From positions 1-64,000 of the forward strand of contig DYJC01000017.1 of the NCBI GenBank assembly GCA_020723305.1: 64,000 nucleotides of DNA, given 5' to 3'. Every line of letters begins with the position of its first letter. Positions within the stretch are counted from its first letter, which is position 1. Position numbers and translations under genes: made by a program. Positions 5,578 through 41,428 of this stretch are shown here, in pieces. The notes under the pieces are model-generated. The model saw only the letters and a program-made list of their open reading frames with translations, searched no databases and was not told the DNA's origin. The stretch comes from Desulfosudis oleivorans (GTDB lineage Bacteria > Desulfobacterota > Desulfobacteria > Desulfobacterales > SURF-7).

Positions 5578-6501
5578 TTATCTTTTGATCTTTCCGGGCA
5601 GGATAAACTCATATCGTTTCCGGAGGAGCCTGGTGGTCAGAAAACGATCCACTTTCCGGAAGGCCAGAAAAAGTGTCCAGATCATCTTGTCTTCCCTGTA
5701 ATATCCGTCCACCTCTTTTTGGGTAAGAGGCTGATCATTTTTAGATAAAAAGCGGTTCACCAGACCAATGGCCGGTTCGACCAGGTCGGGTTTCTGCTCT
5801 TTATAAAGGTTGGCCACCAGGTCGGTGTATACCAGTCTGGGGTGATAATACCGCGTCATGACATCTTTTAAAAAAAACATCCGGATGATCCATCTCAGGA
5901 AAGAGGGAGCGCTTTGCAGCAACAGTTCAGGGTTTTGCTGCTCGATACCGGCCTTTTGATACAACGGCGTGCTGGTATCAATATACAGCAGTCTGCTGTT
6001 TTGTTCCGGCGGAAGATAGATCCAGTTGGAGAGCTGACCGTCAATGGCCAGTTCGATTTTTTGGTTATTCTGCTGGTTGTACGTCCATACCTTATGGGTA
6101 TCTGTCAGAATCCGTTCTATCAGGGAAAGACTGGAGGATTCGCTGGAAACCTGAACCTGATAGTTGCAGAGCCGGTCTCCTGTGAATTTTTCCTGAATAA
6201 TGTAAAGCGCGGTGGGTCTTCCCTGGATGGAAACGATGCGGGTATCATGTTTTGGCAGGCACAACCCTGCCTGGACCAGCAGTTCGCTGTATTCATGATA
6301 CATTTTTTCGTAGGCTGCGGCTGAGGCCTGGTCCTGAAACAATGGCAGCCGTTTGTATACGCAGGTTTCATTTCCGTTGATCTGGAAAATAGCCGATATC
6401 TCGCCGTACCCGACAATGGTCGCCGGGATGGCTGATTTTTCGATATGCTGAGGGTCCAGGCCGGACTCAAATTCGTATAAGAGCGAATCATCTATTTTCA
6501 T
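5578..6501 (-). CDS. Kinase-like (APH-fold) hypothetical protein
   Basis: The family is not recognised by name, but the sequence has the spacing of an aminoglycoside-phosphotransferase-like kinase. It shows a GYGEISAIF nucleotide-loop-like stretch (about residues 31-39), a candidate ATP-binding Lys in CVYKRLP (about 50), a hinge IIQEKFTG, a catalytic-loop-like IDGQLSNW with Asp154 and Asn159, and a metal-site-like YIDTSTP with Asp175. Small-molecule phosphorylation is therefore plausible (inference). The ATG at 6501 is preferred over the upstream TTG because AGGGGA lies six bases before it. It sits between a class III aminotransferase and a C69 peptidase with gaps of 32 and 13 bp, so it is surely co-transcribed with them. 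Confidence 0.72.
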   Translation of the reverse strand: MKIDDSLLYEFESGLDPQHIEKSAIPATIVGYGEISAIFQINGNETCVYKRLPLFQDQASAAAYEKMYHEYSELLVQAGLCLPKHDTRIVSIQGRPTALYIIQEKFTGDRLCNYQVQVSSESSSLSLIERILTDTHKVWTYNQQNNQKIELAIDGQLSNWIYLPPEQNSRLLYIDTSTPLYQKAGIEQQNPELLLQSAPSFLRWIIRMFFLKDVMTRYYHPRLVYTDLVANLYKEQKPDLVEPAIGLVNRFLSKNDQPLTQKEVDGYYREDKMIWTLFLAFRKVDRFLTTRLLRKRYEFILPGKIKR

Positions 6502-6533: not shown

Positions 6534-7790
6534 CTACAGACCCAGAAACTTTTTCGCGTCCGCAAGGCCTTTGTCCACCCGTTCCAAAATTTCCATTGCG
6601 ATGTCCGAATCTATGGTCAGCGGCGGCAGCAACTGGCTCACGCAGGTATTGTTGTTTGCATATACGCTCAGGATACCGTTGTCAAACAAAGTTTTGGACA
6701 GGATGGGTCCGCAGTTTTCATTCTTCATTTCAATTCCCATCATCAGGCCGAGCTGACGAAGGGAAACCAGGATCTCCGGATGTTTTTCTTTCAACCGCTC
6801 AAAACCGGATCGAAAAATGTCAGACATCCGCAGGACATTGTCCAGGAATTCAGGACGGGATGTATACTCCAGAACAACCTGTGCAACCGGGCATCCAATC
6901 TCCGCGCCGCCAAAAGTGGAGACGTGGATAAAAGGATTGTCATGGAAAAAAACCTCCAGCTCTTTCCGGAAACAGGTGGCGGACATGGGATATATCCCGC
7001 CGGAAAGCCCTTTCCCGATCACCATGATATCCGGAACCACATTGAAATGTTCGATGCCCCACATGCGCCCGGTTCGTCCAAGGCCGGTCTGAACTTCATC
7101 GGCAATGAACAGGGCACCATGTTTCCGGCAAAGGTTATGTGCATATTGAAAATAATCCGGTTGGGGAATCGGAATGCCGTAGGTTGCTGGTATGGTTTCG
7201 AAAATCACGGCTGCCGTGTTTTCGTCTATGGCCGAGGACAAGGCATCTTTGTTATCAAAAGGAATTTGAATAAAGCCCGGCGGGTTGGGCCCGAATGGTT
7301 TGCGGTATTTCTCATCTCCGGTTGCCAGGGCCAGACCGGTGTGTCCATGGTATCCGCCATTTACGGATAGGATATTCACACGGTTGGTAAAACCTCTGGC
7401 CAGCTTGATGGCCAGATCAATGGCCTCTCCCCCGCCCACTCCGAAAACCGTGTATGTCAGGTCGCCCGGTGTCAGGTCCGCGAGTTTTTTACCCAATGCA
7501 GCTCGTGCTTCGCTGACCAGATGGTGATTCCCGACATCCAGTTCCTCCATGGCCAGTTTCAGCGCATTCAGGACGATTGGATGGCGGTGCCCAAGGTTGA
7601 AGACGCCTCCATTGCAGTGACAATTGATTACCCTTTTACCGGTATGCGTATCCCAGACATACGGCCCTTCTCTGCGGCCAAATACAAATTCAATTCCAAC
7701 ACTTTTAAAAAAAACCGCTTTGCCGGAAGAAACGTGATTTCGAAAGTTTGTGAAAATATCCTCTTTACTGGATTGACCGATGTGATTCAT
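6534..7790 (-). CDS. Class III PLP-dependent aminotransferase
   Basis: Aspartate-aminotransferase-family class III enzyme (acetylornithine / glutamate-1-semialdehyde / diaminobutyrate aminotransferase group), 418 residues. Visible are the GHRHP motif (about 67-71), a GGGEAIDLAIKLAR cofactor phosphate-binding segment (about 119-132), DEVQTGLGRTG (231-241; the Asp contacts the PLP ring nitrogen) and the Schiff-base Lys260 in VIGKGLSGG. A GGAGAAGAG ribosome-binding site precedes the ATG. It heads the operon with the kinase-like, C69 peptidase and hydrolase genes, which suggests a small amino-containing metabolite being built or broken down; the exact substrate cannot be told from the sequence. 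Confidence 0.9.
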   Translation of the reverse strand: MNHIGQSSKEDIFTNFRNHVSSGKAVFFKSVGIEFVFGRREGPYVWDTHTGKRVINCHCNGGVFNLGHRHPIVLNALKLAMEELDVGNHHLVSEARAALGKKLADLTPGDLTYTVFGVGGGEAIDLAIKLARGFTNRVNILSVNGGYHGHTGLALATGDEKYRKPFGPNPPGFIQIPFDNKDALSSAIDENTAAVIFETIPATYGIPIPQPDYFQYAHNLCRKHGALFIADEVQTGLGRTGRMWGIEHFNVVPDIMVIGKGLSGGIYPMSATCFRKELEVFFHDNPFIHVSTFGGAEIGCPVAQVVLEYTSRPEFLDNVLRMSDIFRSGFERLKEKHPEILVSLRQLGLMMGIEMKNENCGPILSKTLFDNGILSVYANNNTCVSQLLPPLTIDSDIAMEILERVDKGLADAKKFLGL

Positions 7791-28911: not shown

Positions 28912-29406
28912 ATGTCTTTTGGAAAAAACCTTGCAAAGTTTAGAAAAGAGAAAGGGTTAACACAAAACGACCTTGTAAAATTAAGCGGCGTTGGCATTTC
29001 TCAAATCAGACGATATGAAGCGGACAAATCCATGCCATCTCTTGATGCCATTGTTAAATTGGTTAAAGTACTCGGGATTTCAATTGATGAAATGGTTTTT
29101 GACAAAACAACCGCAATTGCATCAAATAAAATTGTCGACCGGGAACTTTTGGAACAGTTCGAGATGGTGTCCGGCATGGATGAAGAAGAAAGGAAATTTA
29201 TTAAAAAATTCCTGGAGGGGGTGATTGTAAAAAATCAGGTGGAAAAACTGGTAAAGCCGAAAAATGAAAAATCATGGTCACAAAGATTTAGAGAAATTAC
29301 AGACCGGCTTGCCGATGGAGTAGAAGAAGATTCTCAAGGTGATATTGACAGTATCATTGATAAAGCGGTGGAGGCGGTAAGGACAAAAAAATATGCCCAT
29401 TCTTAA
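28912..29406 (+). CDS. XRE-family antitoxin/transcriptional regulator
   Basis: 164-residue protein with an N-terminal Cro/CI helix-turn-helix (about residues 5-62: FRKEKGLTQNDLVKLSGVGISQIRRYEAD ... LDAIVKLVKVLGISIDEMVF) and a charged helical C-terminal part. It overlaps the PIN toxin gene by 14 bp, so it should be the antitoxin and autoregulator of the pair. An AAAGGGGG ribosome-binding site precedes the ATG. Confidence 0.86.
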   Translation: MSFGKNLAKFRKEKGLTQNDLVKLSGVGISQIRRYEADKSMPSLDAIVKLVKVLGISIDEMVFDKTTAIASNKIVDRELLEQFEMVSGMDEEERKFIKKFLEGVIVKNQVEKLVKPKNEKSWSQRFREITDRLADGVEEDSQGDIDSIIDKAVEAVRTKKYAHS

Positions 29407-29830
29407 AGCGGTGATCGATACCAACGTGATGATCAGCATGGCTTTTGCCAAGGAAGGTGTGGCAAAAACACTGAAAAATCTGATTGCGGATAACGCGTTC
29501 ACAATGGTTACATCCAAAGCAATTTTAAAGGAATTATACGAAGTCCTTCACTATCCGCATATTCTCAAACGGTTTAAACCGAAAAAATCCGATATCAACG
29601 AGTTCATCGGGGTGATCATTGAAAATGCCTTAATCACAAAAGGCACATACAGCGCACAGGGTATCACGGAAGATCCGAGAGATGATATGTTCATTGCCTG
29701 TGCACTGGAAGGCGATGCCGAATATATCGTATCCAGAGATCCGCATCTCCGGAATATCAAACATTTTCAACGCATCCAGATTATTGATGCAACAACATTC
29801 GTAGAAAAAGTTACCGGCAAAAAGACGTGA
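29393..29830 (+). CDS. PIN-domain toxin
   Basis: 145-residue putative RNase of the COG1569-like PIN group. The acidic active site appears as Asp in AVIDTNVMIS (residues 7-10), Glu in LKELYEVL, Asp in ITEDPRDDMFIACA and Asp in YIVSRDPHL. Coupled to the upstream HTH gene by overlap. The pair faces the minus-strand cassette block, whose distal attC-like site starts 14 bp after this stop. Confidence 0.88.
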   Translation: MPILKAVIDTNVMISMAFAKEGVAKTLKNLIADNAFTMVTSKAILKELYEVLHYPHILKRFKPKKSDINEFIGVIIENALITKGTYSAQGITEDPRDDMFIACALEGDAEYIVSRDPHLRNIKHFQRIQIIDATTFVEKVTGKKT

Positions 29831-32371: not shown

Positions 32372-33487
32372 TCAAACCCGTTCGCGGTTGATGGATGCCA
32401 GGATAATCGAAGAATCGGACGGCAAATCCAGAATTTCAATTTTTTTCACTTCCATCTCCTGCAGCCAGGAAACAACAAGAGAGGAGTCGTGGCAGACACC
32501 TTCACAGGTATTCAGCATCATGTTGATATCATAAAACAGTCCCTTATGCGGGAACAATCCAGGCCGATCCGGGAAATAGTCGTGGATCAATATCTGCCCT
32601 TCTTTATGAAGATGATCGACCGACTTCTGTATGATGAATTTTGCATCCTTCTGATCATAAATGTGCAGGAAATTGCTGATGAGGATGGTGCCGAACCGTT
32701 CACCGGGCTGAAATTCATGAGTCAGAAAATTTCCTTCAACTGTTTGGATTCCAGTCCAGTACTCCGGGTTTGGATACAGGATTTTGGCAGCACGGATGAC
32801 TTCAGGTAATTCCAGGAGAACAGCCTTTCCTGGAATGGTATGCTGAAGCAGTCTTCTGCAAAGAGCTCCGGCACCTCCACCGATATCCAGTATCGGCGAA
32901 TTCCTGACCTTTGTATTACATAGTCTGACGATCTCTTCTGCCTTTTGACGGGCCAATTCATCCATGGCCCGGACATAGTTAAAATTACGGGTCTCGTAGT
33001 CGTCCGGGGTAGATGATGGAATCGTGCTTTTCCTGCCTGTATCGCCGGAAAGCTTTTTGGTGATGTTCTGCCAGTTATTTTGGATGTACTTCCGGTACAG
33101 CAGAAAATTTCCCATATACTGCGGGCTATCCGGTAGCAGATGCCGGCGGGCTGCCGGAAGATTTTTCCAGCAGCCCTTCTCCTGTTCAATCAGCCCGATG
33201 CCTGAAAGCGCTTTCATGATGCGATGAAGATGATCTTCCTTGCAGCCTGTTGCAGATGCAAGAGATTTTGGATTATGATTCCTTTGTTCGATCAGACTGA
33301 AAAGATTCAGCTCCAGAGCTGCAAACAATATTTCGGAATACCAGTAAGCTGTGGAAAGATCTTCCAGGAACTGGAATCCGATATCGCTGGGGTCTCTTTT
33401 TTTTATAAGATCCTGGACTCCGGTTTTCACCGGAGTGACGGAATCCAGGTTCTTCTTTAATTTTTTACAGCACTCATTATGCTTCAT
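32372..33487 (-). CDS. bzaC: O-methyltransferase, probable BzaC (5-hydroxybenzimidazole methyltransferase)
   Basis: SAM-dependent O-methyltransferase of the acetylserotonin/plant-OMT class, 371 residues. The N-terminal winged-helix dimerisation domain (about 40-140) includes LASATGCKEDHLHRIMKALSGIGLIEQ. The SAM motif is ILDIGGGAGALCRRLL and the catalytic-His-like region is SNFLHIYDQ. The start is 10 bp after the ThiC-like gene's stop, so both share the cobalamin riboswitch. BzaC of the anaerobic bza pathway belongs to this class and converts 5-hydroxy- to 5-methoxybenzimidazole; the name rests on this context. Residues about 15-28 are encoded by a dispersed palindromic repeat (33412-33449), an unusual in-frame insertion. 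Confidence 0.75.
   Translation of the reverse strand: MKHNECCKKLKKNLDSVTPVKTGVQDLIKKRDPSDIGFQFLEDLSTAYWYSEILFAALELNLFSLIEQRNHNPKSLASATGCKEDHLHRIMKALSGIGLIEQEKGCWKNLPAARRHLLPDSPQYMGNFLLYRKYIQNNWQNITKKLSGDTGRKSTIPSSTPDDYETRNFNYVRAMDELARQKAEEIVRLCNTKVRNSPILDIGGGAGALCRRLLQHTIPGKAVLLELPEVIRAAKILYPNPEYWTGIQTVEGNFLTHEFQPGERFGTILISNFLHIYDQKDAKFIIQKSVDHLHKEGQILIHDYFPDRPGLFPHKGLFYDINMMLNTCEGVCHDSSLVVSWLQEMEVKKIEILDLPSDSSIILASINRERV
33412..33449. repeat. CCTGGA...TCCAGG palindromic repeat inside the O-methyltransferase gene
   Basis: CCTGGACTCCGGT and ACCGGAGTgacggAATCCAGG form a near-perfect inverted repeat of the widespread TCACTCCGGTGAAAACCGG class. It lies in frame and encodes the peptide DSVTPVKTGVQD. 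Confidence 0.75.
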
Positions 33488-33497
33488 CGTCCATCCA

Positions 33498-34814
33498 TTA
33501 TGCCTTTACGCTTCCGGCAAGTGTTCCTTCAAATATCGCATTGGAAGCCCGGTTAGCACAGAATTCACCGCACATGGTGCAGACCTTGTCGTCACAGGAT
33601 GGTGAACGGTCGTTCCGGATTTTCAGGGCATCTGCCGGAAACAGGGCATTTTTAAACTGGCCTTCCCAGTCCAGGTCCCGTCTGGCTTTGCTCATGGCAA
33701 TATCCCTTGGTTTTGTCCGCTCCGGATATTTTCCAAGATCCCCGATATGAGCCGCTAGCTTGGCCACCTTGACGCCTTCAATCACATCCGCCTTATTGGG
33801 CAAGGCCAGATGCTCGGCCGGTGTGATGTAGCAGACCAGATCCGCTCCATACCGGGCGGACTGGGCCGCTCCGATAGCAGCCACCACATGATCATATGCC
33901 GCTCCGATATCCGTGGGCAGAGGCCCCAGCATGTAATACGGGGCATAATTGCTCATCCGTTTTTGCAAAATAATATTGGCCTCGATTTCATCCATGGGCA
34001 CATGCCCTGGCCCTTCCACCATCATCTGACAGCCCATTTTCCGGCCTTCTTCGGCCAGTTCGCAGTTGATCAGCAGTTCCTGGATCATGGCCCGGTCAAA
34101 GGAATCGGCGATCGATCCCGCACGCAGGCCGTTTCCGAGCGACAAAACCACATCGTATTTTTTCAGGATGGAAACCACCCGGTCAAATTTTTCATACAGG
34201 GGATTCTCTTTCCGGTTTTTCTTCATCCAGGCAACCATGGATGCGCCGCCTTTGCTCACAAGGCCGCCGTAACGATAGCCCTGCTTTTCCAGACGCTCGA
34301 TGGTATATAGATTGATGCCGCAGTGAATGGCCATGAAGCTCATGCCGTCCTCGCACTGGCGTTCGATCAGATCAAACAGCATCTCTTCATCAAGCTTGTT
34401 CGGGTCACCATATTTCCGTCCGGCCTCACTGAATGCCTGATACAGCGGAACATTGCCTACCGGAAGCGATACCGCAGCCAGCACCTCTTTCCGGATTTTA
34501 TCCAGATCGCCTCCTACCGACAGTTCCATCAAAGTGTCTGCGCCCGCCTCTTCCGCAGCAATCGCTTTTTCCACTTCCGCATCAATATCTGCAATATCGG
34601 TCGAGGTTCCGATAGAGGCATTGATCTTTGTAGTCAGGCCCATGCCAATTCCAACCGCGGAACAAGTCCGATTGATATTCAAAGGCACAACGATCCGGCC
34701 TTCGGAGATACGTTTCTGCACTAATTGGGGATCAATGCCCTCTTTTTCCCCGATTTCGATCATCTGCCGGGTTACGATTCCTTCCATTGCATATTCTACC
34801 TGTGTTTTTGCCAT
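33498..34814 (-). CDS. bzaF: ThiC paralogue, probable 5-hydroxybenzimidazole synthase BzaF
   Basis: Radical-SAM enzyme of the ThiC superfamily, 438 residues (short form). The C-terminal cluster motif is C-T-M-C-G-E-F-C (Cys412, 415, 419). It retains TTKIN, SIHCGI-like (AIHCGINL), MVEGPGHVPMDEIEANI, LGPLPTDIGAAYDH and CYITPAEHLALP. It departs from ordinary ThiC at positions usually invariant: NASIGTS for NANIGTS, MELSVGG (96-102) for MDLSTGG and SLGNGLRAG for SLGDGLRPG. Upstream is a cobalamin, not a TPP, riboswitch, and an O-methyltransferase follows. BzaF makes 5-hydroxybenzimidazole from aminoimidazole ribotide in anaerobes. Start at 34814 because AAGGAG lies upstream. ThiC proper is the alternative. 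Confidence 0.82.
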   Translation of the reverse strand: MAKTQVEYAMEGIVTRQMIEIGEKEGIDPQLVQKRISEGRIVVPLNINRTCSAVGIGMGLTTKINASIGTSTDIADIDAEVEKAIAAEEAGADTLMELSVGGDLDKIRKEVLAAVSLPVGNVPLYQAFSEAGRKYGDPNKLDEEMLFDLIERQCEDGMSFMAIHCGINLYTIERLEKQGYRYGGLVSKGGASMVAWMKKNRKENPLYEKFDRVVSILKKYDVVLSLGNGLRAGSIADSFDRAMIQELLINCELAEEGRKMGCQMMVEGPGHVPMDEIEANIILQKRMSNYAPYYMLGPLPTDIGAAYDHVVAAIGAAQSARYGADLVCYITPAEHLALPNKADVIEGVKVAKLAAHIGDLGKYPERTKPRDIAMSKARRDLDWEGQFKNALFPADALKIRNDRSPSCDDKVCTMCGEFCANRASNAIFEGTLAGSVKA

Positions 34815-34837
34815 TTTTCCATTCTCCTTGAAAAGCC

Positions 34838-34877
34838 AAAAAAAAATCCCCAAGCCGATATATATCAGCCTGGGGAT
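34838..34877 (-). terminator. Rho-independent terminator of the cobalamin riboswitch
   Basis: On the minus strand ATCCCCAGGCTGATA pairs with CGGCTTGGGGAT and is followed by a run of T residues, ending 24 bp before the bzaF start. It is the probable expression platform: cobamide bound means termination. Confidence 0.8.
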
Positions 34878-34904
34878 TTACCATTTCCGCCAAGTGTTCT
34901 TTCA

Positions 34905-35082
34905 ACTGTCCGGCAGGTCTTCTGACTCGTGAATCAATCTATTCCCTGCGCCTTCCCGTATTGCTTCGAATCGTTCCGGTCAATACAGTGGCTATTGCAG
35001 GTTTCGTCCTCACTTACAGCGGCGGGTCCGCGCCGGGTTTTCACCGGCTTCCCTTTTCAGCTCCAAAGGAGCAACCATACAG
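34905..35082 (-). promoter_or_regulatory. Cobalamin riboswitch
   Basis: On the minus strand the order of elements is diagnostic: AAAAGGGAAGCCGGTGAAAA, then GCGGACCCGCCGCTGTAA, the B12 box AATAGCCACTG (34985-34995), GGAAGGCGC and finally GAGTCAGAAGACCTGCC (34911-34930). The intrinsic terminator and the bzaF start follow directly. No TPP-riboswitch signature is seen, as would be expected for a thiC gene. Confidence 0.92.
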
Positions 35083-35119
35083 TTTTCTTTTTTCTGAGGG
35101 TGGATAGCACACGACAATT

Positions 35120-35818
35120 TTACTTGTCAAGAAAAGATTCGAGCGACCATTTCCCTATTAATGTGGATTTTTTAAGAGAATTTCCAATTTCCTTTAAAAA
35201 CCGTTTCCGGGGAATTTCCCGTGCACCGGAACGAAGCAGATGATCTGTTGTGACCTGGCAATCGATCAGATCAAACGATCTTTGCCGTAAATATTCGACC
35301 AGAAAAACAAACGTGACTTTGGATGCATTGCTTTGATTGGAAAACATCGATTCACCAAAAAAACATCTTCCCAGGGACACGCCATAGAGTCCTCCGACAA
35401 GCTTGTCATCCTGCCATGCCTCAAAGGAATGGGCATATCCGGTTTTATGCAGATGACAATAAGCTGTGATCATATCCTCCACAATCCAGGTGCCATCCTG
35501 TTTTTTCCTCTGCGCATGAGCGCAGCTAAGAACAACCTGATCAAAAGCCGTATCGATTCTGATGGAAAAAATATTTTTACGGATTATTTTTTGCAGGCTT
35601 CCGGATATTTTCAGTTCATGAGGATACAGCACAAGGCGGGGATCCGGCGTCCACCACATGATGGGCTCATCCTTTGAGTACCAGGGAAATATTCCCATCT
35701 GGTAGGCAAGCAGCAGCCGCTTTTCGGACAGGTCGCCGCCAATGGCGATAAGTCCCTCTTTTTCGGCAAGATGCGGTGGCGGGAAGGCAATTTTATCGGA
35801 AAGCAGAAAAATAGTCAT
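35120..35818 (-). CDS. aat: Leucyl/phenylalanyl-tRNA-protein transferase
   Basis: Attaches Leu or Phe to N-terminal Arg/Lys of proteins so that ClpS can deliver them to ClpAP, about 232 residues. Typical are FPPPHLAEKEGLIAIGGDLS, YQMGIFPWYSKDEPIMWWTPDPRLVL, SFEAWQDDKLVGGLYGVSLGRCFFGESMFS and DCQVTTDHLLRSGA. The start MTIFLLSDKIAFPPP (35818) is chosen because the 29 codons upstream are repeat DNA. clpA and clpS lie just upstream on the same strand, completing the N-end-rule pathway. Confidence 0.95.
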   Translation of the reverse strand: MTIFLLSDKIAFPPPHLAEKEGLIAIGGDLSEKRLLLAYQMGIFPWYSKDEPIMWWTPDPRLVLYPHELKISGSLQKIIRKNIFSIRIDTAFDQVVLSCAHAQRKKQDGTWIVEDMITAYCHLHKTGYAHSFEAWQDDKLVGGLYGVSLGRCFFGESMFSNQSNASKVTFVFLVEYLRQRSFDLIDCQVTTDHLLRSGAREIPRKRFLKEIGNSLKKSTLIGKWSLESFLDK

Positions 35819-35845
35819 GAAAAAACAACAAAAAGTTTCAATTTC

Positions 35846-35907
35846 GTCACTCCAGTGTAACCCGGATGATATGAAGAAAACTGGATGCCGGATCAAGTCC
35901 GGCATGA
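35846..35907. repeat. Composite repeat between clpA and aat
   Basis: GTCACTCCAGTGTAACCCGG is followed by CTGGATGCCGGATCAAG and TCCGGCATGAC, the widespread palindromic GATGCCGGATCAAGTCCGGCATGAC element. Read in frame it yields MPDLIRHPVF, a peptide often seen in over-extended annotations. Confidence 0.8.
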
Positions 35908-35929
35908 CAAAAAAAGAATTCTGCCGGTT

Positions 35930-38200
35930 TCAGGAGCATCCGGAATAGAAAAATGCCAGCTTTTCCTGTTCAAGATCAATGGTAACCTGTCCGCCTTTTT
36001 CAAGCTTTCCAAACAGGATTTCATCCGACAGCTTGTCCTTGATTTCAACCTGGATCAGCCTTGCAAGAGGTCTTGCTCCATAATCGGGATTATATCCCTT
36101 GTTTGCAAGCCATATCCTTGCAGCTTCAGAGAGATTCAGTTCGATTTTTTTAACGGATAACTGTTCTTTCAGCTCGGCGATGAACTTATCCACAACCTTC
36201 TCCATGATAGTTTGTGTCAATGGATTGAAATTAATGATCGCATCCAGTCGGTTCCGGAACTCCGGGCTGAAAAATTTCTCGATCGCTTTCTTTCCCTTGC
36301 TTTCCGAATCCCCGCGGAGATCGCCAAAGCCGATGGCATTTGCACTCATCTCCCGGCTGCCGGCATTGGAGGTCATGATCAGAATGACATTCCGGAAATC
36401 CGCCTTTTTGCCGTTGTTGTCGGTAAGGGTGGCATGATCCATGATCTGAAGAAGAATATTGTAGAGATCCGGGTGGGCTTTTTCGATTTCATCCAGCAGA
36501 AGAACGCTGTATGGATGTTTCCGGATGCCGTCGGTAAGCAGCCCTGCCTGATCAAATCCGATATAACCTGGCGGCGCACCGATCAGTCTGGCAACCGCAT
36601 GCTTTTCCATATACTCGCTCATGTCAAAGCGAAGAAACTGAACGCCCAACACCTGCGCAATCTGTTTGGAAACCTCTGTTTTTCCGACACCTGTCGGGCC
36701 GGTAAACAAAAATGACCCGATGGGCTTTTCCGGGATTCCAAGGCCGGCTCTTGACCGTTTTATAGACATGACCAAGGATGAAATCGCAGAGTCCTGGCCA
36801 TACACTTTTTCACGCACTTTTTCATCTAGGAATTCAAGTTTGGACCGGTCATTGGTGGATACACTCTGTGTGGGAATACGGGCCATCTTTGCGACAATTT
36901 TTTCAATATCCGAAGCATGGATTTTACTTCTCTGGGTTGAACCTTTTAATCTCACAAATGCTCCGGCCTCATCAATCACATCGATTGCCTTGTCCGGCAG
37001 AAAACGGTCGTTGAGATATTTGGCAGACAGTTCTGCAGCTGCTTTCAATGCTTTTTCCGTATACAGGATATTATGATGCTCCTCGTACCTGGATTTCAGG
37101 CCTTTGAGTATCTTGATGGTTTCCGGGATGTCCGGCTCCATGATTTCAATCTTTTCAAATCTTCTGGACAGTGCCCTGTCTTTTTCAAAGTGGGAACTGT
37201 ATTCTTCATAAGTGCTTGAACCAATACAGCGGAGCTCACCGGATGTAAGGACCGGTTTCAGGATATTGGAAGCGTCCATGGAGCCGCTGCTGGTTGCTCC
37301 GGCACCGACAATGGTATGGATCTCATCGATGAACAGAATGGCATCTTCCTTTTTTTTCAACGCAGAGATGATTTTTTTCAATCTCTGTTCAAAATCCCCC
37401 CGGAATTTTGTTCCCGCCAGAATGCCGCCCAGATCCAGCGCAAAAATATGGGTGTTTTTCAGCAGATCCGGAATATCCCCCTGAACAATCCGGAGGGCCA
37501 GGCCTTCTGCCATGGCGGTTTTTCCGACCCCCGGCTCTCCGACAAATACCGGATTGTGTTTTCTTCTGCGGCAAAGCACCTGAATGGTACGTTCCAGTTC
37601 ATTTTCCCGTCCGATCAAAGGGTCCAGTTTACCCAATCTGGCCTGTTCCACCAGATCGGTTGTAAACAGTTCCAGGATATCTGACTTTTTCTTTTTATCC
37701 TCTTTTGAATCCTCTTTATCCAGTGAATCTTCTTTGTCCGGTTTTTCCAGATTACTTCGCGTATCCGTTATATTGGTGTTCTGGTGGGAGATATATCGGA
37801 GCACATCCAGCCGGGTGAGTCCTTCGGATTGAAGGAAATAGGCTGCATGGGAATCTTTTTCCTGGAAAATAGATGCAATAATATCTCCTAAGGAAACGGT
37901 TTGCTTTTCAGCAGAACGGGCATGGTTTACCGCACGTTGGATAACCCTTTGGAATCCAATGGTCTGCTGCAAGACATATTCACCATCTTCCGGAACACTC
38001 TCAATCTGTTCATTCAAAAATTTGTCCAGATTAATTTTTAAATTTTCAGGGCTGCCACCACAATTTTCAATTATTTCTACGCCACGGCTGTCATGGATTA
38101 CAGCAAAAAGAACATGTTCCAGGCATACATATTCATGTCTTCTTTTTTTGGCTTCACGGACAGCAAACCCTAATGCAGCACTGAGTTCTTTGCTTATCAT
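35930..38200 (-). CDS. clpA: ATP-dependent Clp protease ATP-binding subunit ClpA
   Basis: AAA+ unfoldase of 756 residues. It has an N-domain (about 1-145), the first AAA module with Walker [10 protein letters not shown] and Walker [11 protein letters not shown], and the second with GPTGVGKTE and [11 protein letters not shown]. The C-terminal D2-small domain ([17 protein letters not shown]) is present. A ClpP-binding IGL-type loop is seen as NAIGFGD, less typical than IGL. It sits 3 bp after clpS, so the adaptor and unfoldase are translated together. Confidence 0.96.
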
Positions 38201-38203
38201 ATC

Positions 38204-38518
38204 TTATTCCTTTTCCATGGTACATTTTAAGGGATATCCATTTTCGGCTGCCAATGCGTGTACGGTTTCAACTTTGGTTTCTGCAACCTCATATGGATAT
38301 ACGCCACAGATACCGACCCCGTTTTTATGAACATTCATCATGATCCGGGTCGCCTCCCCCTCTGGTTTCCGAAAAACCATAACCAGAATATTTACAACAA
38401 AATCCATGGAAGTGTAATCATCATTATGCAGTATAACACGGTATAGGGGAGGTTCAGCAATGATTTTTCGAGTTTCAATGGACACCCCGGTTTGTGAACC
38501 AGGTACTTGCTTACTCAT
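38204..38518 (-). CDS. clpS: ClpS adaptor protein
   Basis: About 104 residues. It delivers N-end-rule substrates to ClpA. Key contacts are VILHNDDYTSMDFVV (Asn and Asp pair that binds the N-terminal residue), the MFRKPEGEATRIMMNVHKNG helix and CGVYPYEVAETK. The MSKQ start (38518) is preferred over one eight codons upstream because GGAGG stands seven bases before it. Immediately upstream of clpA. Confidence 0.95.
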   Translation of the reverse strand: MSKQVPGSQTGVSIETRKIIAEPPLYRVILHNDDYTSMDFVVNILVMVFRKPEGEATRIMMNVHKNGVGICGVYPYEVAETKVETVHALAAENGYPLKCTMEKE

Positions 38519-38905
38519 GTTTCCACCTCCAACAGGTGCCATAATTGAAGGTTTTCACACAGACTTTATGAAGGAAAATCATATGTATCATGTCTTTTTT
38601 ATTGTTTTTTCACTCAAGCCTTTTTCAGTACGAAAAGGCCATAACAATAAAAATCGGGTGCAATATTCAAAATGATCATTCATTTCTTAGCCTAAATAGT
38701 AAGATTTATGACAGGAAAAATCAAGAGCCAGTTTCAAAAGTCTGTTGTTGTAGTTCCGACGAAAACTAGACACGCAGTGCAGTTTTCCAAGCCGCCAGGC
38801 GCAACCGAAGCGCTATCCAGTATTTCCGGCTCTTTTTTGGGCACCGACTTTCGCCGGTGTGACGCTTTTCAATTGTTTTGAAATTGGCTCATATATTTTC
38901 TTTTT
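38519..38905. other. Intergenic region holding MITE copy 1
   Basis: No gene between secA and clpS. Contains the 166-bp MITE-like element (38725-38890), which ends 15 bp before the secA stop, and AT-rich DNA that probably carries the clpS promoter. Confidence 0.6.
38725..38890. mobile_element. MITE-like element copy 1 (166 bp, with a 44-bp insertion)
   Basis: Terminal inverted repeats GAGCCAGTTTCAAAAG and TTTTGAAATTGGCTC; one base differs from the other copies. The interior matches the 122-bp copies but has about 44 extra bases around 38772-38818. No clear 4-bp target duplication remains. Confidence 0.75.
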
Positions 38906-41428
38906 TCAGGCACCGCAGCATTTTTTATATTTTTTCCCGCTTCCGCATGGACAGGGAGAATTCCGACCAACTTTCTCGCTTTCCCGTTTCCGGGGTTCTT
39001 TTTTTTGTGGTTCCTGACCATGAGAAAAAACAAGATTTTCCGCCTTGGTTTCTCTTAGCTCATCAAGCTTTTCTTCTTTGACAATCTGAATCCGGAACAT
39101 GATTTTGAGGGTTTCTTCTTTGACCCTTGCGATCATGTCATTGAACATTTCAAACCCCTCTTTTTTATAAACAAGCAGGGGGTTCTGCTGCGCATAACCT
39201 CTCAGGCCGATTCCTTCTTTCAGGTGATCCATTGCAAGCAGATGCTCTTTCCAGAGATTGTCGACGGTTTGCAGCATAAAAAATCTTTCCATCTGCCTGA
39301 AAGTTCCTTCTCCAATATTGGTCTCTTTTTCATCATATTTCCTCATTGCATTTTCGGAAATCAATTTTGCAAGATCCTCATAAGTCAAGCCTTCCAGATC
39401 AACCTGCTGAAAGTCAATTCGAAAGTTGAACTGGTCATAAATCGCATCATTTATGGATTTATAGTCCCAGTCAGCGGGCGATAACTTACTGTCTACAAAA
39501 CGTCCGGCAATCACTTCGGACAGATCTTCGATAATATCGATAAATTCGGGTTTCAGGTCTTCACCACTCAGGGCTTCCCGTCTCTGACGATAGATGACCT
39601 CTCTCTGCTGATTCATGACATCATCATATTCAATCAGTTGTTTACGGATATCGAAATTGTGCCCTTCCACTTTTCCCTGGGCGTTTTCAATTGCTTTGCT
39701 GATAAGCCTGTGTTCAATCGGTTCTCCATCCTCCATTCCGAGTCGTTCCATGATACTGGATATCCGTTCACCGCCGAAAATCCTTAACAGATCATCTTCA
39801 AGTGAAAGATAAAATCTGGATGAGCCAGGATCACCCTGTCTGCCGGAACGGCCTCGAAGCTGGTTGTCGATTCGGCGGCTTTCATGTCTGCTAGTCCCGA
39901 GAATATGAAGCCCGCCAAGATCAATAACACTCTCGCCTAGTACAATATCCGTACCACGCCCTGCCATATTGGTTGAGATGGTTACCGAGCCTTTCTGACC
40001 TGCCAGCGAAACGATCTCCGCTTCCTGGCTGTGGTGTTTGGCATTTAAGACAGAGTGCTTGATTCCCCGTTTCTTCAGTTTTTCACTCAGGCTTTCGGAA
40101 ATATCAATGGATATGGTGCCGACCAGTACCGGCTGGCCTTTTTCATGAAGCTCAACAATTTCATCCAGAACCGCTTCATATTTTTCTTTTTTGGTTTTAT
40201 AGATTACATCTGGGAAGTCCACACGTATCATGGGTTGATTGGTCGGGATAACGACAACATCCAGATTGTATATTTTTTTAAATTCCGCTGCTTCCGTATC
40301 CGCCGTTCCCGTCATTCCAGACAATTTGTCATACATCCTGAAGTAATTCTGGAATGTTATTGTCGCAAGCGTTTGATTTTCATTTTCAATCTTCACGTTT
40401 TCTTTGGCTTCAAGCGCCTGATGCAAGCCATCGCTGTATCTTCTTCCCGGCATCAGACGGCCTGTGAATTCATCAACAATGATCACTTCACCGTTTTTTA
40501 CGATATAATCCACATCCCGCTTAAACAGGGTATGCGCTTTTAATGCCTGGTTTGTATGATGAAGAAGCTCGATATGTTTGGGATCGAACAGATTGGTCAC
40601 CTGCAATTTTTTTTCAGCTTTTGCAACCCCCGCTTCCGTCAGCACTGCTGATCTTGCTTTCTCATCAATAGTATAGTCCACGTCTTTTGAAAATGAGGGT
40701 ATGATACTGTTGACCTGATAGTACAGGCTTGTCGATTTTTCCGCTGGACCGGAAATAATCAGCGGAGTCCGGGCTTCGTCAATAAGGATACTGTCAACTT
40801 CATCCACAATCGCAAAGGATAAGTCTCCTTGTACAAGGGACTCTTTGTGGAATTTCATGTTATCACGGAGATAATCAAAACCGAATTCATTGTTGGTGCC
40901 ATATGTGATATCACATCCATATGCAGCCTGACGCTCCTTGTCATTTAAATCATGCACAATGGTGCCGCAGGATAACCCCAGAAAGCGATATATCTGTCCC
41001 ATCCACTCAGAGTCACGCTTTGCCAGATAATCATTCACCGTGATGATGTGAACCCCCTTTCCGTTCAATGAATTCAAATAAGCCGGGAGTGTTGCAACAA
41101 GCGTTTTTCCTTCCCCTGTTTTCATCTCAGCAATCTTGCCCTGATGAAGGATAATGCCACCAATCAGCTGACAATCAAAATGCCTCATATTCAAAACACG
41201 TTTTGAGGCCTCTCTCACGACTGAAAAGGCTTCTGGGAGAATATCATCCAGGGTTTCGCCCTCTTTCAATCGGTTCTTGAACAAGGCAGTCTGATCCTGA
41301 AGCTCTTGATCACTCATTTTTGAAACAACAGGTTCTTTTTGATTGATCAGATCAATCATTGGGGATATGCTTTTAATAACCCGATCATTTTTACTACCAA
41401 ATATTTTTGTCAATATCATCGAGATCAT
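38906..41428 (-). CDS. secA: Protein translocase ATPase SecA
   Basis: Motor of Sec export, 840 residues. DEAD-type ATPase motifs are visible: [36 protein letters not shown] (with DEVDS as Walker B) and the helicase-like [13 protein letters not shown] and [21 protein letters not shown]. The zinc-binding C-terminus is [14 protein letters not shown]. The start MISMILTK is supported by the distance to upstream sequence; ATG at codon 4 is an alternative. Interacts with SecYEG and SecB, membrane-associated. Confidence 0.97.

Follow-up and report, generated by a model that had tools for sequence, protein, structure and literature searches.

A predicted bzaF-bzaC operon under a cobalamin riboswitch in Desulfosudis oleivorans, an apparent corrinoid salvager with its own lower ligand

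We analyzed a 64,000-nucleotide stretch of the Desulfosudis oleivorans genome (contig DYJC01000017.1; hereafter the window) in which a ThiC-family gene and an O-methyltransferase (OMT) gene lie behind a cobalamin riboswitch. We conclude that this locus is most likely a two-gene operon for anaerobic benzimidazole synthesis, bzaF-bzaC, that provides the lower ligand of 5-methoxybenzimidazolyl-cobamide ([5-OMeBza]cobamide) by remodelling. In the pathway that we propose, BzaF would convert 5-aminoimidazole ribotide (AIR) to 5-hydroxybenzimidazole by ThiC-like radical S-adenosylmethionine (SAM) chemistry, and BzaC would use SAM to O-methylate this compound to 5-methoxybenzimidazole. After activation by CobT, 5-methoxybenzimidazole would be joined to a corrinoid by the late cob enzymes; the corrinoid ring would be imported through a TonB receptor with BtuF-, BtuC- and BtuD-like proteins and stripped by CbiZ. 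At high cobamide levels, the riboswitch would favor the terminator and turn the operon off. The substrates, the products, the direction of the riboswitch response and the remodelling are what we infer here from the genes and their contexts. The features of the locus are as follows.

32372-35094, minus strand: bzaF-bzaC feature including the riboswitch, the whole locus in the 64 kb window
34895-35094, minus strand: full-length cobalamin riboswitch aptamer (Rfam RF00174)
34886-34894, minus strand: candidate antiterminator strand directly 3' of the aptamer (folding prediction from a single sequence)
34844-34879, minus strand: intrinsic terminator of 16 pairs with a loop of 4 and a T tract (hairpin analysis)
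33498-34814, minus strand: bzaF-type gene, ThiC-family radical SAM enzyme of 438 aa, predicted 5-hydroxybenzimidazole synthase
32372-33487, minus strand: bzaC-type gene of 371 aa with dimerisation and Methyltransf_2 domains and without DUF2284, predicted 5-hydroxybenzimidazole O-methyltransferase

A first-pass annotation of this DNA, made from the letters alone, had described a full cobalamin riboswitch with a B12 box and a terminal motif, a terminator, a ThiC-like gene and an O-methyltransferase gene 10 bp behind it. We found each of these elements, including both riboswitch motifs and the 10-bp spacing; the start proposed for the feature (32372) also stands, but its end moves from 35082 to 35094. 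The leader matches the Rfam Cobalamin model with 122.5 bits (E 2.9e-30; gathering score 31.5) over all model positions 1-189, and this is the sole Rfam match above the gathering score within the window. The 295-nt leader is more stable than its shuffled versions (z -4.5; 0 of 200 shuffles equal it). When the 3' arm of the terminator is forced to be unpaired, the minimum free energy fold pairs 34886-34894 with 34869-34876 in the 5' arm of the terminator, so that 34886-34894 is a possible antiterminator in this model. Of 21 loci examined with a simple finder, 8 gave a hairpin with a T tract within the 140 bases that precede bzaF; the locus of the sister species (L105) is not among the 8, and termination is therefore not established as a conserved mode of control. 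The ThiC-family frame begins at an ATG preceded by AAGGAG; a longer 451-aa frame from a TTG is unlikely, as its start would fall inside the terminator.

For the ThiC-like protein, the best-supported identity is BzaF, the 5-hydroxybenzimidazole synthase. In a tree of ThiC and bzaF sequences (80 rows, 74 of them different, built with a quick method and with neither bootstrap nor an approximately unbiased test), 64 bzaF rows make up one side of a branch of 1.56 changes per column that has 100% support in the Shimodaira-Hasegawa-like approximate likelihood ratio test (SH-aLRT), and the host's own ThiC falls on the opposite side. This tree has long branches, including that of one ThiC row (L022) adjoining the bzaF side; Geobacter sulfurreducens is absent from the loci used, and G. 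argillaceus and Geomonas are included. The host genome (5.4 Mb in 47 contigs, 97.87% complete, 3.65% contamination) contains two genes of the ThiC family PF01964, the window gene (579.8 bits) and a thiC at position 318299 of contig C12. Upstream of the latter are open reading frames (ORFs) read as ThiH- and ThiE-like and, at a distance of about 3 kb, the one thiamine pyrophosphate (TPP) riboswitch detected in the genome. The separate, TPP-linked thiC for which the first-pass annotation had advised looking is thus present, and the window protein does not cluster with bona fide ThiC. The clade is large: 81 of 395 genomes sampled from the phylum have a match at E 1e-140 or better. One genome with a ThiC-type match (G038) also has two short bzaF-like pieces of 64-70% identity, one with an in-frame stop (C94:28160-28634), and its bzaF is apparently decaying.

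To place the catalytic residues, we mapped the window protein onto Arabidopsis thaliana ThiC (AtThiC; residue numbers in the entry exceed the construct index by 68). The conservation of the mapped positions was read from 139 aligned rows (123 bzaF and 16 ThiC, some from the same genome in two collections). Window Ser67 aligns with AtThiC Asn228 and window Asn228 with AtThiC Asp383; these positions are Ser/Asn in 123 of 123 bzaF rows and Asn/Asp in 16 of 16 ThiC rows, so that the window protein lacks the conserved AIR-contact Asn and Asp of ThiC. In AtThiC, Asp383 touches N3 and Asn228 the 3'-OH of AIR, and the N228D and D383A variants consume AIR and produce no hydroxymethylpyrimidine phosphate (HMP-P) (PMC11117688). 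The changed motifs that had been noticed in the sequence (MELSVGG, NASIGTS and SLGNGLRAG, at usually invariant sites) are real and common to the clade, and the clade-wide changes at such sites include these two catalytic positions, fixed in the sampled clade. We propose that the Ser/Asn exchanges may steer the radical cascade to benzimidazole.

We asked which cobamide steps the host encodes besides lower-ligand synthesis. The genome has a cobT, on a contig other than that of bzaF-bzaC. A run of late genes encodes CobQ/CbiP, CobU, CobS, a CobD-like protein and CbiB and includes no ring genes; CobS (100.8 bits; cut-off 110) and CobD (268.2; cut-off 290.55) fall short of their NCBIfam cut-offs, and CobS is above that of Pfam (154.5 vs 23.2). 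The same contig carries a corrinoid uptake and remodelling cluster (L103 7097-13951; contig C28, ~55.1-62.0 kb), in which a second cobalamin riboswitch is followed by a TonB receptor, a 458-aa protein, a fusion of a periplasmic binding protein to CbiZ, and a second binding protein. Behind this cluster come BtuC-like and BtuD-like ORFs, both below NCBIfam cut-offs. A third cobalamin riboswitch (L104 10032-10217, minus strand, contig C41; 108.3 bits) has a 1103-aa ORF read as a mutase upstream of it on the same strand. We probed the corrin-ring genes through CbiD and the tetrapyrrole methylase (TP-methylase) family. CbiD had no match in the host genome, and the search for TP-methylases yielded just two, a CobA-HemD fusion and a putative RsmI of 296 aa. 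As neither is apparently corrin-specific, CbiL and CbiF, TP-methylases that serve as markers of producers (PMC6461909), appear to be absent. The host thus has nucleotide-loop genes and appears to lack all or most ring genes, the pattern given for cobinamide salvagers in PMC6461909; this is what would be expected of an organism that salvages or remodels cobinamide and supplies the lower ligand itself. No BluB was found over the cut-off (nine weak matches, the best 43.9 bits vs 150), and with neither bluB nor a BzaD-grade gene in the genome the predicted ligand is 5-methoxybenzimidazole. The first-pass annotation had the host make 5-methoxybenzimidazolyl-cobamide; the identity of the genes and the likely product stand, but since the genome has genes for uptake, CbiZ and the late cob steps and no corrin-ring pathway was found, the host probably makes the ligand and attaches it to salvaged corrinoids.

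It is unlikely, in our view, that the host is instead an ordinary de novo cobamide producer whose corrin genes are missing from the draft. At 97.9% completeness in 47 contigs, the assembly could have lost a corrin cluster, and this weighs against the remodelling step; furthermore, in Desulfatibacillum alkenivorans, whose BzaF is 79% identical, bzaF lies ahead of CbiK-, BtuC/D/F- and CbiA-like ORFs, suggesting de novo synthesis in that organism. Set against this are the short list of TP-methylases, the failure to find CbiD, and the arrangement of a late cob run without ring genes on one contig with the receptor and CbiZ.

The methyltransferase is best read as BzaC, the 5-hydroxybenzimidazole O-methyltransferase, because other OMTs of its clade are encoded in runs of the type bzaF-(cobT)-OMT-bzaD-like-bzaE-like, which is the gene order published for bza operons. 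The protein matches PF00891 and PF08100 over their cut-offs, and its structure model (moderate, with a predicted local distance difference test score of 77) has the fold of a family-2 O-methyltransferase, with a best Z of 27.1 to 5i2h (3.7 A over 302 residues). It belongs to a clade of 14 non-redundant OMTs (95% SH-aLRT), all of which keep the SAM motif GGGAG and an S-N-x-x-H stretch. Twelve of them are encoded next to bzaF or one to two genes after it (the window, L105, L106, L108, L114, L115, L116, L119, L120, L125, L131 and L173). L106 and L108 have the order bzaF-cobT-OMT-BzaD-like-BzaE-like, which the bza order of E. limosum matches (PMC8123684), and L131 has bzaF-OMT-cobT without BzaD/E. 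The remaining two (genomes G053 and G021) have bzaF elsewhere in the genome and the OMT beside a BzaD-like gene that looks damaged or shortened (L096 10854-11271 in G053 and L201 9984-10727 in G021; an in-frame stop in one, a 293-aa frame in the other). All 59 relatives have low-scoring matches to the NCBI BzaD model TIGR04385, since B12-binding radical SAM proteins are widespread, and we therefore took only scores near the cut-off as BzaD, such as that of the L120 protein (423.2 bits, slightly under the cut-off of 450). "BzaE-like" denotes position and B12-binding radical SAM type, with a B12-binding match below the Pfam cut-off and no model.

Several results weigh against this assignment. 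The methyltransferase is linked to BzaC by operon context and clade, its fold family acts on many substrates, and no BzaC model is among the NCBIfam matches. An OMT of at least 45% identity occurs in 4 of 59 relatives, all four among the 15 with bzaF, which leaves 11 of these 15 without one (in one of the 15, G002, bzaF is cut by a contig end). Between the window and its sister species the OMT is also less conserved (73%) than BzaF (92%; the named sister of the host with a BzaF of this identity is the metagenome-assembled genome (MAG) "Desulfobacteraceae bacterium SURF_7"). If BzaF were read correctly and the methyltransferase acted elsewhere, the cobamide would carry 5-hydroxybenzimidazole (factor III), as in Geobacter sulfurreducens. 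The breadth of the enzyme family and the faster drift of the OMT are compatible with that outcome, as is a relative (G007) that has an 83% identical BzaF and no OMT over 26% identity. We nevertheless regard it as quite unlikely, given the 10-bp spacing, the occurrence of clade OMTs after bzaF or bzaF-cobT in 11 further loci, the placement of the two displaced OMTs beside damaged BzaD-like genes, and the motifs kept throughout the clade.

We then looked at the control and the neighbours of bzaF in relatives. Riboswitch counts rest on Rfam scans, which left out L038-L066; a sequence-pattern search missed many Rfam positives and was not used for counts. Of 27 further loci, 23 have a cobalamin riboswitch immediately ahead of bzaF, comprising 13 of 13 in L009-L021, 3 of 3 in L106, L108 and L120, and 7 of 11 in a third set (L110, L114, L116, L119, L125, L131 and L173). 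In L129, L151 and L156 it is 4.4-4.7 kb upstream, and in L155 none was found in the 2.7 kb upstream of bzaF. TPP riboswitches occur at four of six ThiC-type loci, and cobalamin riboswitches at none of the six. A cobT match is present in 48 of the 80 named bzaF loci (the best 80 of 551 confirmed relatives), many of them from Geobacteraceae or other Desulfuromonadales, in agreement with the published settings in Geotalea daltonii (PMC13119186) and G. sulfurreducens (PMC8123684). The D. alkenivorans locus (L110) has cobalamin riboswitches on either side of bzaF (5697-5892 and 7406-7593), the second of which precedes its CbiK-, BtuC/D/F- and CbiA-like ORFs.

Other features of the synthase speak for ThiC. 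As predicted, automated annotation would call the gene thiC: two NCBIfam ThiC models score over their cut-offs (572.3 vs 410 and 536.3 vs 460), and there is no BzaF model among the NCBIfam matches. A BzaB identity (TIGR04386) is rejected at 499.7 bits against a curated cut-off of 700, a low score that also counts against a benzimidazole synthase. The predicted fold is nearest ThiC (Z 44.5-51.4). Window Glu267 aligns with AtThiC Glu422 and window Cys328 with Cys474 of C. crescentus ThiC, and the equivalents of E422 and C474 and the three cluster cysteines are conserved in 139 of 139 rows (C412, C415 and C419 in 123 of 123 clade rows). Finally, AtThiC D383N retains partial activity (PMC11117688), and thus the exchange at D383 alone does not rule out HMP-P synthesis. 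These features would suit a second, cobalamin-regulated ThiC for the thiamin pyrimidine with the methyltransferase as an unrelated passenger, a reading that we reject as very improbable because the clade stands apart from ThiC, another thiC lies behind a TPP riboswitch, both AIR-contact positions are replaced in every clade row, and the clade has B12 rather than TPP riboswitches, often with cobT nearby.

The BzaC-type proteins of relatives revealed a further domain. In 11 of the 14 clade OMTs, DUF2284 (PF10050, predicted metal-binding) follows the OMT in the same open frame (L106 3476-5029, L108 8830-10380 and L120 1991-3544, and L114, L115, L116, L119, L125, L173, L069 and L070). All 11 of these loci have a BzaD/E-like match, compared to none of the three without DUF2284 (Fisher test 0.0027 with kinship ignored, the counts being phylogenetically dependent). 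Eight have both BzaD-like and BzaE-like genes; L173 has a BzaE-like gene alone, and L069 (G053) and L070 (G021) have a damaged-looking BzaD-like gene alone. Neither a BzaD-like nor a BzaE-like gene was found near the OMTs of the window, L105 or L131. Genome-wide, the best scores on the BzaD model in the host (194.5 bits) and in the genome of L105 (G001; 205.6 bits) fall short of BzaD grade (cut-off 450), and we rejected a remnant of bzaD, bzaE or DUF2284 in the window, where the best tblastn match to BzaD-like, BzaE-like and DUF2284 queries had E 0.14. In four loci of Geobacteraceae/Desulfuromonadales type (L157, L164, L175 and L183), bzaF is followed by a distant OMT (21-24%) that carries DUF2284, and three of the four also have a weaker BzaE-like match (32-35%). 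A literature search on DUF2284 returned no tie to benzimidazoles in the portions of text that it covered. We tentatively suggest, as a proposal that may well prove wrong, that the DUF2284 of Desulfobacterota bza operons belongs, so far unrecognised, to the anaerobic 5,6-dimethylbenzimidazole pathway and acts with BzaD and BzaE, and that the window lineage and a Desulfarculaceae MAG shed it with those genes, leaving a minimal bzaF-bzaC with which a ring-less host would put its own 5-methoxybenzimidazole on scavenged corrinoids. These fusions, which lie outside the window, merit separate attention.

The kind of pathway proposed here is already known, and the window is most likely a further example in a host apparently unable to build the ring. 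Its bzaF resembles those of G. sulfurreducens and Geotalea daltonii in cobamide operon context and cobalamin riboswitch control (PMC8123684, PMC13119186); the window BzaF is in the same clade as the named Geobacteraceae/Desulfuromonadales loci (69-73% identity), the proteins of those two species themselves being outside the comparison. G. daltonii bzaF is last in cobU-cobT-cobS-cobC-cbiA-bzaF (PMC13119186), whereas in the window a separate riboswitch precedes bzaF and an OMT gene accompanies it, with cobT on another contig. The Moorella thermoacetica operon bzaA-bzaB-cobT-bzaC, likened here by description and not by sequence, also pairs a ThiC-like hydroxybenzimidazole synthase with a methyltransferase, and its product, [5-OMeBza]cobamide, is the one predicted for the window (PMC8123684). 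It differs in having BzaA plus BzaB and cobT in the operon, while the window has one BzaF and no cobT, and ring genes were not found in its host; L131 has the Moorella gene set in another order and with a single synthase. Of the E. limosum-type order seen in L106 and L108, two loci with OMTs from the same clade as that of the window, the window has only synthase and methyltransferase. ThiC itself shares Pfam family, fold and cluster cysteines with the window BzaF and differs in clade, two AIR-contact residues and riboswitch.

A gene still labelled thiC by curated models is therefore most likely a B12 lower-ligand synthase, and automated annotation overlooks the tailoring of cobamides in many anaerobes. 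If a predicted corrinoid salvager does make its own lower ligand, ring scavenging and ligand making are separable, which would matter for how anoxic communities exchange cobamides. The two active-site exchanges fixed in the clade also offer a mutagenesis handle on the pyrimidine versus benzimidazole outcome of one radical cascade.

Upstream of bzaF in the window, ORFs at 35120-41428 read as an aat-clpA-clpS-secA block; L105 and L107 have a comparable block ahead of bzaF, but L107 lacks the methyltransferase. The window also has two overlapping ORFs at 28912-29830, read as helix-turn-helix-type and PIN-like, that are possibly a toxin-antitoxin pair.

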